Assembly: GCF_016405145.1 (NCBI RefSeq)
Contig: NZ_JAEKIA010000001.1
Span: 62,001-126,000, forward strand
DNA length: 64,000 nt
DNA from: Schaalia cardiffensis
Lineage (GTDB): Bacteria; Actinomycetota; Actinomycetes; Actinomycetales; Actinomycetaceae
Direction: 5' to 3'
Below are positions 4,454 to 36,074 of this stretch, one piece after another (positions within the stretch are counted from its first letter, which is position 1; each line of letters starts with the position of its first letter). The translations under genes and the position numbers were made by a program. Under the pieces are notes generated by a model. The model did no database searches and was not told the origin of the DNA. It worked only from the letters and a program-made list of their open reading frames with translations.

Positions 4454-6262
4454 TCAGCACTTCCCGGGGTTTGCGGTGCAGTATTCCCTGAAACGCGCAG
4501 TGTTGGCCTCTTGTTCGGCAAGGGTTTGCGCGAAGAGGGTTTCTCCCGTTTCCAGGTTGACTGTCACGTAGTAGAGCCACGGACCGTCAGCCGGTTTGAG
4601 GACCGCTTTGATAGCCGCTTCAGAGGGTTGAGCGATCGGAGTCGGCGGCAGTCCCTTGTGAAGGTAGGTGTTGTACGGGTTGTCGTCGGCCATGTCATCA
4701 GCTGAGGGAACTCCACCGGTCTTGCCCACTCCGTACAGGACTGAGGAATCCATTTGCAGATATCCCATGGTCTCCGCGTCTGGATTGTTCAGACGGTTCT
4801 CGATCACTCGGGCAACCTTGGGCAGATACTCGTCGATGTTGACCTCGCGCTCCAGGATTGACGCTTTGTTGAGGATGAGCTCTCGTTGGTCTTTCGGAAC
4901 TCCCAAAGCGTCAAGCTCTCCGATTGTCTGTTTGATCATTTGAGACAGGAGGGTCGTGGGAGTGTCTGATGAGGACACCTCGTAGGAGCCCGGAGCCAAC
5001 CAGCCTTCAACATTGCCTCCGGCTTCCTCGGGCAGACCGATTGCCGTGGTGTCCTTCAAAGCGGCGTTGACCTCGTCGGCTGTGAAGGATGTGACTGAGG
5101 TGATGCGCTCGACGATCTGCCAGGTCGTTTGCCCCGGCGTGACCGTGACCGTGTTCTCCGAACGGTTCTTCTCATCAAGGAGTGCAGCGATCGCGTCTGA
5201 TGCGCTCATCTCTTTCTTCAGACGGTAGGTGCCGGGCCGGATCGAGGGCGCAGCCTTATTCGCTGCGAAAGCCCGGTTGAAAGCCTCAGTGGATTTCACG
5301 ACACCGGCTTCGACGAGTGTTTCGCCGATGGAAGTTCCAGTTGCACCGATATCGATCGTGACTTCCACTTGTCCGGTACCGGGCCCGGGGTAGTCGTCGG
5401 TGTAGGCGGAACTTTGTTGGCCTGTGAGGTCGAGTTGTTTGAGGGCGAACCATCCGGCCCCGCCGAGAAGGACGAGGACGAGGAGGATGATGAAAAAGGA
5501 GCGGATGCGCCGATTGCGGCGCCGTTTGCGAGCTCGGCGCCGTTCATATTCGAAGCGGCGCGAACGCATTCCCGTGGTTTCAGCGGGAAGAGAAGAGGTC
5601 TTCTTCGCTCGAGCGGACGTCGATTCGCTGGGCCGGGGGGTTGCTGTGCTACGTGAAGGCGCGGCCTGAGAACGGGAGGAAGCTGCTTCACGGCGCGAGG
5701 ATGCGAACTCTCGACGCGAAGGGGGTGCCTCACGACGAGAAGCGGGAGCCTTGGGCTGCGAAGAAGATGAAGAGACCCGATCACGGGGTGAAGAGGTGCT
5801 CGATGCCCTAGACGCGGCTGCTTGCGAACGCGAAGGCGGCATCTCACGACGCGAAGCTGGTGCCGTACGAGCTGAAGCGGCGCTCCCAGCCTGAGGCGCG
5901 GTCGCCTGGGAAGAAGAAGGGACATCGGCGCGAGAAGATGCTCCCTCTCGGCGTGAAGGGAGTGTCCCACGGCGTGAAGGAGGCGGGGTCCTGCGTGAAG
6001 GGGGCGTCTCAGCGCGCGACGCTCCCCTCTGATACCGAGAGCTCGCCGTCTGAGAACGCGAATGCCATGTCGGCGCAGCGGAGGAAGGCCCCTGAGAGCG
6101 AGAATCCCGTGCCTTCCGAGAAGAATCCTGTGCCTCGGGGCGGGAAGAGGTGGCCTCCGGGCGAGAAGAGTCCGTCTCAGGAGTTCGACGAGAAGTGGGG
6201 GCCTGCCCGTGGTGAATTTCTCGACGAGACTTGAACGGAGGACGTGGGGTCGGAGTCGTCAC
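4454..6262 (-). CDS. mltG: endolytic murein transglycosylase MltG with long S/R-rich cytoplasmic domain
   Basis: Cleaves nascent glycan strands in the membrane-proximal wall and terminates their elongation. Domains: residues 13-215 are a low-complexity Ser/Arg/Ala/Pro region of degenerate 7-residue repeats (SRREAPP, SRREFAS, SRREAAS, SRSQAAP); 233-254 is strongly basic; 255-274 is the single transmembrane helix (SFFIILLVLVLLGG); the rest is the extracytoplasmic YceG fold. The catalytic glutamate lies in ASILEREVN (E471 or E473), followed by LQMDSSVLYG and GLPPTPI typical of the family. At 602 aa it is much longer than E. coli MltG (about 340), all due to the N-terminal domain, which topology places in the cytoplasm. 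GTG start overlaps the ruvX stop by 4 bp (GTGA). Confidence 0.95.
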   Translation of the reverse strand: MTTPTPRPPFKSRREIHHGQAPTSRRTPETDSSRPEATSSRPEAQDSSRKARDSRSQGPSSAAPTWHSRSQTASSRYQRGASRAETPPSRRTPPPSRRGTLPSRREGASSRADVPSSSQATAPQAGSAASARTAPASRREMPPSRSQAAASRASSTSSPRDRVSSSSSQPKAPASRREAPPSRREFASSRREAASSRSQAAPSRSTATPRPSESTSARAKKTSSLPAETTGMRSRRFEYERRRARKRRRNRRIRSFFIILLVLVLLGGAGWFALKQLDLTGQQSSAYTDDYPGPGTGQVEVTIDIGATGTSIGETLVEAGVVKSTEAFNRAFAANKAAPSIRPGTYRLKKEMSASDAIAALLDEKNRSENTVTVTPGQTTWQIVERITSVTSFTADEVNAALKDTTAIGLPEEAGGNVEGWLAPGSYEVSSSDTPTTLLSQMIKQTIGELDALGVPKDQRELILNKASILEREVNIDEYLPKVARVIENRLNNPDAETMGYLQMDSSVLYGVGKTGGVPSADDMADDNPYNTYLHKGLPPTPIAQPSEAAIKAVLKPADGPWLYYVTVNLETGETLFAQTLAEQEANTARFREYCTANPGKC

Positions 6263-6741
6263 TGAGCGCTGCTCCCTTCCAAAGTGATCTCTTTACCCGG
6301 TGCGCGCCCGGACATGCGCTCTTCTTCGAGGGCCTGTTCGAGGATAATCTGTGCTGCCACCTGGTCAATGATCGGTCGATGGTCCTTCTCGGAAATACCT
6401 GAGGCTCGCAGCCGAGCATGCGCCTGATTCGAGGTCAGGCGCTCGTCGACAAGAGCAACACGGATCTCCGGTCTGAGAGTCTTGATCCTTAGAGCGTACC
6501 TGCGTGCCGCTTTCGCTGAGACCCCTTCGCCGCCTTTCAAGTGCCGTGGCAAACCAACGATCACTTCGATTGCGCAATACTCGTCGACAATCTCACCAAT
6601 GCGATCAATGTCGGAGCGGTCCTCTTGGCGAATGAGTGTCTCAACGGGCATCGTGAGGATGCCGTCCGGATCGCAGCGAGCAACCCCGACCCGGACGGTT
6701 CCAACATCAACGCCAATGCGTACGCCCTTGCGCTCGATCAC
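6259..6741 (-). CDS. ruvX: Holliday junction resolvase-like / pre-16S rRNA nuclease YqgF
   Basis: RNase H-fold nuclease implicated in 16S rRNA 5' end maturation and annotated as putative Holliday junction resolvase. The 160-aa product has the N-terminal GVDVGTVRVGVA strand with catalytic Asp, a VGLPRHLKGGEG segment, VDERLTS and IDQVAAQIILE with the C-terminal Asp. GTG start; 4-bp GTGA overlap with the end of alaS and another with mltG, so the three are translationally coupled. The conserved alaS-ruvX-mltG-aroE order supports the assignment. Confidence 0.95.
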   Translation of the reverse strand: MIERKGVRIGVDVGTVRVGVARCDPDGILTMPVETLIRQEDRSDIDRIGEIVDEYCAIEVIVGLPRHLKGGEGVSAKAARRYALRIKTLRPEIRVALVDERLTSNQAHARLRASGISEKDHRPIIDQVAAQIILEQALEEERMSGRAPGKEITLEGSSAQ

Positions 6742-18116: not shown

Positions 18117-18164
18117 TTAAGGGGGAACAATAGCACCCAGTTAAGGGGGACCAATAGCACCCAG
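18117..18164. repeat. tandem 24-bp direct repeat
   Basis: Two adjacent 24-bp units (18117-18140 and 18141-18164) beginning TTAAGGGGGA and ending AATAGCACCCAG differ at one base. It might be a remnant of an insertion-sequence end or a recent duplication; no transposase fragment is recognisable nearby. Confidence 0.75.
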
Positions 18165-35695: not shown

Positions 35696-36074
35696 CAGTG
35701 CTCCCTTTTGGGGTGGATTGAATACTTGCCCATAGTAGCCGGACCTTCCTCGCATCCTCCTTCCAGCGCTTGAAAAGTGGAAGGTTTTCCTTGAAAGATC
35801 ACAGGAAGTGCCTGAACGCTACGCGGCTGGCAGGCCGGGCTTCTCTTGATGCTCGTCGAGGAAGGCCGGGATTCTCTTTGTGCCAGTCGAGGGGATGTCC
35901 GGGCCTTCCTTAGGCGATGCTCGAAGGTCTTCGCCCCTGTGGACGCCAACTTGCCCCCCTCAGCACAGTGCACCTGTGCCCTCAGCACACCGCGCTCTAT
36001 CCTTGAGGTCTTCGCACTTTTCCTAGCCCCGGCTTGGCGCTTGCCTCAACAAGCCCTCCCTCTTCACGAAGGGT
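35696..36074. other. intergenic region upstream of yebC
   Basis: 379 bp with no recognisable gene. It holds a TACTAT box (minus strand, 35732-35737) about 37 nt before the yebC ATG that may be its -10, and imperfect 31-bp repeats. Confidence 0.5.
35832..35893. repeat. imperfect 31-bp tandem repeat
   Basis: Units 35832-35862 and 35863-35893 share AGGCCGGG, TTCTCTT, GC and GTCGAGG at the same positions; a more degenerate third unit may follow to about 35925. Function unknown. Confidence 0.6.

Follow-up and report, generated by a model that had tools for sequence, protein, structure and literature searches.

The mltG gene of Schaalia cardiffensis raises the question of whether the long Ser- and Arg-rich stretch that its product carries ahead of the membrane is a genuine heptad repeat and, if so, whether that repeat forms a conserved domain, serves the enzyme in some other way or is a mere spacer. 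A preliminary description of the DNA had called the stretch a Ser/Arg heptad-repeat domain of MltG, placed it in the cytoplasm ahead of a single membrane helix, and suggested that it could be phosphorylated, bind nucleic acid or tether elongasome partners. Here we analysed the window, by which we mean the whole stretch of 64,000 nucleotides; the features of the locus are collected in Table 1.

Table 1. Features of the mltG locus, with positions in the window and residue numbers of MltG.
Feature	Position	Strand	Basis
mltG, endolytic transglycosylase, 602 aa	4454..6262	-	Pfam YceG 4.1e-67; NCBIfam TIGR00247 7.8e-39; Foldseek top match is MltG crystal structure 8yoa
YceG catalytic domain, residues 301-589	4496..5362	-	Pfam; E473 invariant in 30/30 alignment rows
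Transmembrane helix, residues 256-278	5429..5497	-	Hydropathy; AlphaFold2 helix 236-278
Basic juxtamembrane segment, residues 228-255 (ETTGMRSRR...)	5498..5581	-	Motif [TS][TS]GxR[STA]RR
Ser-Arg heptad array, residues 22-209 (approx.)	5636..6199	-	Lag-7 autocorrelation; predicted coil, ten-residue pLDDT means 42-55
Well-phased block 3, residues 173-208	5639..5746	-	5/8 Arg in one phase, other 3 in the next
Well-phased block 2, residues 135-156	5795..5860	-	3/4 Arg in one phase
Well-phased block 1, residues 66-115	5918..6067	-	7/11 Arg in one phase
N-terminal anchor, residues 8-17 (PPFKSRREIH)	6212..6241	-	Arg13 kept in at least 90% of the 30-row alignment; predicted short helix 13-17, pLDDT about 62
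Upstream ORF, presumably ruvX	6259..6741	-	ORF list; 4-nt overlap with mltG start

The mltG gene and its heptad array

The protein that bears the array is an otherwise normal MltG of the YceG transglycosylase family. Its Pfam YceG score was 227 bits against a curated cut-off of 32.4, it was the only YceG match in the whole genome, and its AlphaFold2 model (run on 30 sequences) matched solved MltG structures in Foldseek (8yoa, E 4.3e-19). The invariant E473 lies in the AS[IV]xxxE region, whose Glu we take to be the catalytic residue of MltG. Hydropathy revealed a lone N-terminal hydrophobic segment preceded by an Arg-rich stretch, which fits the single, N-in membrane helix that had been proposed after the repeat; since the array precedes this only membrane helix, it is most likely cytoplasmic, and the catalytic domain would lie outside the membrane. 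We considered whether the array could be an artefact of a wrong start, a wrong frame or an assembly error, which is very improbable: although our crude gene calling missed mltG, the gene, taken from its first start codon (GTG), shares 4 nt with the end of the ORF upstream, the same overlap occurs in 24 of the 34 MltGs of the genus (where starts were picked for closeness to ruvX), the frame is open through to the catalytic domain, codon positions 1 and 2 of the MltG frame carry the strongest period, and the anchor at residues 8-17, which precedes the array, is conserved, indicating a translation start ahead of the array.

The interval 5618-6226 corresponds to codons 13-215 of the MltG ORF, for which a degenerate 7-residue unit had been claimed. 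Over these residues (25% Ser, 18% Arg, 16% Ala, 12% Pro), we counted 72 lag-7 identities compared to 27.6 in shuffles (z 9.6; none of 5000 shuffles reached 72), with harmonics at lags 14, 21 and 28; many other lags showed a deficit. When SR and SRR tokens were kept whole during shuffling, the lag-7 maximum in 5000 shuffles was 49, still below the observed value. Twenty SR dipeptides fall between residues 24 and 203, spaced by exactly 7 in 13 of 19 cases, and five heptad units read SRRE, the same as the N-terminal anchor. Tandem-repeat analysis of the protein thus found the claimed 7-residue period, confirming that it is real and that there are about twenty degenerate copies of a Ser-Arg unit, arranged in three well-phased blocks, with the phase broken twice and the start irregular. 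The extent of the repeat had to be narrowed, however, since codons 13-15 belong to the conserved anchor and the array itself begins only at about residue 22. The 21-nt DNA periodicity that had also been described was found in part: lag-21 identity was present at all codon positions, but it was weaker at the third, indicating that the period is mainly one of the protein, and Tandem Repeats Finder saw in the array DNA only a single short 21-nt array (5708-5751, 2.1 copies, 82%). Elsewhere in the window, short tandem repeats were found at 18117-18164 (24 nt x 2.0, 95%) and 35832-35892 (31 nt x 2.0, 83%).

In the AlphaFold2 model, ten-residue pLDDT means were 42-55 over residues 21-230, with no helix; ahead of the catalytic domain, most of which had pLDDT >90, helices were predicted at residues 13-17 and 236-278 only. 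The array is predicted to be a disordered coil in the cytoplasm. A coiled-coil heptad was also considered and excluded, as the model is helix-free between residues 18 and 235 and there are 25 Pro in 203 residues.

Relatives and the conserved ends of the tail

MltG was found in 34 of 35 genomes of the genus, and all 34 tails, the window's included, were parsed. The other-family sample gave 70 parsed MltGs from 112 genomes, 40 of them picked to add genera and to favor long frames, and its tail lengths are therefore no fair sample. We also used 80 named loci, which are 80 of 535 relatives and partly overlap the sampled genomes, giving 154 distinct sequences overall. The lag-7 test covered the 63 of 104 parsed tails that have at least 60 residues, the only genus tail left out being that of L010 (57 residues); one relative, L003, was counted in shortened form in the lag-7, catalytic-domain tree, charge, anchor-pattern, juxtamembrane, dN/dS, SRxxR(R/K) and 154-sequence pattern tallies. 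Besides the window's, the genus has 33 MltGs, and none of the 32 that could be tested showed the heptad period (highest lag-7 z 3.3, in L034); among the 80 named loci, of which 23 were long enough, the highest z was 1.9. A search of 35 genomes with the array alone returned the window's own locus and, at E about 0.006, two matches interrupted by stops, one on the opposite strand of the array DNA and the other, with three stops, the sole match in the 34 other genus genomes; a search for a second array in the window's own genome gave two weak matches only, on the opposite strand of the array DNA and with stops inside. A conserved heptad domain is excluded, since lag-7 z was at most 3.3 in all tested tails but the window's. 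The term domain does not hold for a region that is predicted to be disordered and whose period is absent from 32 testable genus relatives and from the array search of 35 genomes; this goes much of the way to the refuting outcome named beforehand, a family alignment with a random disordered linker and no conserved period. Among the relatives examined, the array is an expansion seen in one species only.

The shortest of the 34 genus tails has 57 residues and the longest about 477. In the catalytic-domain tree, the window's MltG, with a tail of 255 residues, adjoins those of L010 and L022 and then that of L019, with tails of 57, 76 and 100 residues, respectively. When the L019 linker was compared to the early array units, 15 of 21 columns were identical in the best stretch, and 1 of 5000 shuffles reached the score obtained with window residues 18-50, one of six array slices tried; the five other slices gave nothing. 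Since this linker resembles the first units at the same place, a seed may have predated the expansion, to grow into the array here and be lost in L010 and L022. In comparisons of the whole array with the linkers of 52 relatives, the best z values were an unconvincing 2.93 (L081) and 2.73 (L002), with L019 outside the top 12, and no sensible DNA alignment was obtained between the tail starts of the window and L019.

The two ends of the tail are conserved. Many relatives carry YPFRSRREIH or near variants at the N terminus; [STP]RR[EDQ] occurs within the first 45 residues of 24 of the 34 genus MltGs and 26 of the 70 others, and the genus misses of this strict pattern include the variants PFPKRASIH and FRSRSEIH (the latter in L003). 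Ser12 of the anchor varies among relatives, being Pro in L010 and L022 and Lys in some others. At the other end, the juxtamembrane motif was present in 33 of 34 genus MltGs (the window's included) and in 5 of the 70 of the other-family sample. As a general N-terminal signal, [ST]RR[EDQ] was looked for in 238 crudely called genes from 282 kb of contig C1 (~13% of the genome), where it gave 5 matches in 84,996 residues; neither of the two early ones (within the first 120 residues) came with a membrane helix, and one early match lies in a wrong plus-strand ORF that was called over mltG. These genes thus gave no sign of such a general signal.

Age, retention and turnover of the repeat

At the codon level, lag-21 excess identity in the array was 0.26, 0.26 and 0.13 at codon positions 1, 2 and 3, respectively, in a test that took in every codon, as the SR units had been selected for having SR. 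The difference between positions 1 and 2 and position 3 was 0.13 (bootstrap 95% interval 0.017 to 0.247, with 1.06% at or below zero), indicating that the residues of the array have been kept better than its silent sites. In the SR units, Ser is encoded by TCN in all 20 cases, and the pairwise identity of these codons was 0.263 compared to 0.308 expected from genome usage, while that of the Arg codons was 0.38 compared to 0.355 expected, both values being for units that were selected for SR. Among all lag-7 same-residue pairs, the same codon was used in 31 of 72 (22.3 expected). Overall, these results indicate that the heptad units probably descend from duplications, with silent sites that are well diverged and residues that are better kept. 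The array appears to be an old tandem expansion, and the data fit, with modest strength, weak purifying selection to maintain the spacing of Ser-Arg. As to codon usage in the same stretch, TCT makes up 21 of the 50 Ser codons in residues 13-215 (positions 5618-6226) compared to 11% in sampled genes.

Such a pattern has to be weighed against a near-neutral repeat expansion, in which the tail is a mere spacer turned over by replication slippage and the heptad has no function of its own. This is a close rival of the docking reading set out below and may be the correct account, although we put it at less than even odds. In other species the linker contains tandem repeats unrelated to the heptad (lag 18, z 9.4 in L034; lag 19, z 7.6 in L078; lag 6, z 5.1 in L075; lag 10, z 4.9 in L085) and the sister species lack the array, both of which speak for drift of a spacer, yet in the array Ser-Arg has been kept though the silent sites of its units, which were selected for SR, are near random, and codon positions 1 and 2 have decayed less than position 3. 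The substitution rates bear on both sides: linker dN/dS was 0.17-1.42 compared to 0.01-0.25 for the catalytic domain, a ratio of about 2 to 20 in the 11 of 13 pairs that gave both values, as drift would have it, but it was below 1 in 10 of these 11 pairs. In the pair L012 and L014, whose catalytic domains are near-identical (dN 0.003), the linker value of 1.42 comes from few changes.

Possible roles of the tail

The reading that we favor, at a rough probability of 0.4, is that a hypervariable disordered tail tethers MltG, with the anchor docking, the repeats adding docking and DivIVA as the partner. The tail would be a flexible tether joining the Arg-centred anchor at the N terminus to the basic juxtamembrane segment, and the conservation of both ends of a disordered tether suggests that these do the work and that the variable middle provides reach. 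The anchor would most likely serve to dock MltG to some cytoplasmic protein that organises wall growth, for which DivIVA/Wag31 is the foremost candidate, and the heptads, since they carry the anchor's Ser-Arg core again and again, would give the tether more length and also further, weak binding sites, hence avidity near the growth zone. The genome encodes a DivIVA in which a Tyr is followed at a distance of six residues by an Asp (GYDQVEVD), which is presumably the spacing found in GpsB. In the MltG model, Ser12 of the S12-R13 core directly precedes the predicted helix 13-17, although pLDDT is only ~62 there and the Ser varies in relatives.

We infer docking by the anchor, docking by the repeats and DivIVA as the partner by analogy with systems described in other bacteria. 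GpsB, a DivIVA homologue, binds Ser/Thr-Arg motifs of wall enzymes in which the Ser/Thr is a helix N-cap, and its Tyr/Asp dyad is conserved in DivIVA/Wag31 according to the authors (PMC6335420). Like the mini-domains of the GpsB-binding PBPs, the MltG tail has an N-terminal cytoplasmic Ser-Arg motif with a short helix predicted after the Ser; in contrast to them, its second Arg is misplaced, its putative partner is DivIVA and the motif is far from the membrane, with the anchor ~240 residues before the membrane helix, whereas the motif in GpsB partners is described as membrane-proximal (PMC6335420). In Streptococcus suis, MltG is an interaction partner of DivIVA, which also influences where MltG is placed, the part of MltG that binds being unspecified in the excerpted report (PMC10269899), and in Corynebacterium glutamicum RodA is localised by DivIVA; in pneumococcus, however, RodA and PBP2b keep their localisation without DivIVA, which counts against the docking reading (PMC11481917). 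The short sister tails of 57 and 76 residues, which lack the array, also count against it. The strict GpsB motif SRxxR(R/K) was absent from the window's tail and from 33 of the 34 genus tails, only that of L008 having one, and the four transpeptidase-domain proteins found in the genome are without SRR, TRR or [ST]RxxR from the first start codon on. That the tail forms a polyvalent docking arm, whose ~20 weak anchor copies would engage a DivIVA/Wag31 lattice and so concentrate MltG at the growth zone, we regard as unlikely. Among the three functional guesses made beforehand, the tethering of elongasome partners appears the best supported, with the conserved anchor a likelier means of it than the repeats alone.

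Phosphorylation of the tail by Ser/Thr kinases, tuning MltG, has a precedent in Enterococcus faecalis, where the disordered tail of MltG is phosphorylated by IreK in a manner that requires T20 (PMC12369325), and the genome of the window has six kinase-domain matches (five strong, one partial). However, the E. faecalis site is a Thr whereas the array is Ser-rich, no conserved Ser/Thr site was seen in the linker across the genus (leaving aside the Thr pair of the juxtamembrane ETTG), and L010 and L022 have Pro where the anchor has Ser12; we therefore consider a phospho-regulated tail improbable, and of the proposed phosphorylation of the S/R repeats there remains what the precedent allows, with no site indicated. 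Binding of the Arg-rich array to RNA, the nucleoid or anionic lipid is likewise a long shot. The window's tail is Ser/Arg-rich and carries a net charge of +27 in 227 residues, but across the 33 of 34 genus tails tabulated the charge runs from -25 to +27, and in the 32 others it does not exceed +12. This lack of conservation argues against a conserved role in binding nucleic acid or membrane lipid, so that the earlier suggestion of nucleic-acid binding gains no support; moreover, a conserved basic segment already lies at the membrane.

The protein resembles MltG/YceG elsewhere (MpgA in pneumococcus) in its YceG domain, its one membrane helix and a gene adjoining ruvX, and differs in a 255-residue tail with a Ser-Arg heptad array that was unseen in the relatives tested. 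MltG of E. faecalis also has an extended disordered N-terminal cytoplasmic segment before the helix, although the excerpted report mentions neither a heptad repeat nor an Arg anchor; it describes such a segment in a few MltG homologues, with a function unknown to its authors (PMC12369325). The heptad array is thus a lineage-specific expansion within a known kind of disordered tail. Searches by title and the start of the abstract found no literature on the placement or restraint of MltG, or on its tail, in actinobacteria, and none was found on Schaalia MltG or on serine-arginine heptads. Together, the Arg anchor, the variable tether and the juxtamembrane segment make a concrete docking hypothesis, of which the array would be a natural multivalent version. 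If the docking arm is true, tandem repetition of a docking motif would be a way to tune the recruitment of wall enzymes in bacteria; should the array be no more than a neutral spacer, it would illustrate well how repeats turn over in the disordered tail of a bacterial protein.

Tails of at least 100 residues occur in 50 of the 154 distinct MltGs, which are not a fair sample. By pattern, the N termini of these 154 sequences show two designs: an MSDLFD-like start in 73, with short tails (median 41), and an Arg anchor with a longer tail in 59 (median 130, a tail >50 being part of the definition); none has both designs, and 22 have neither.
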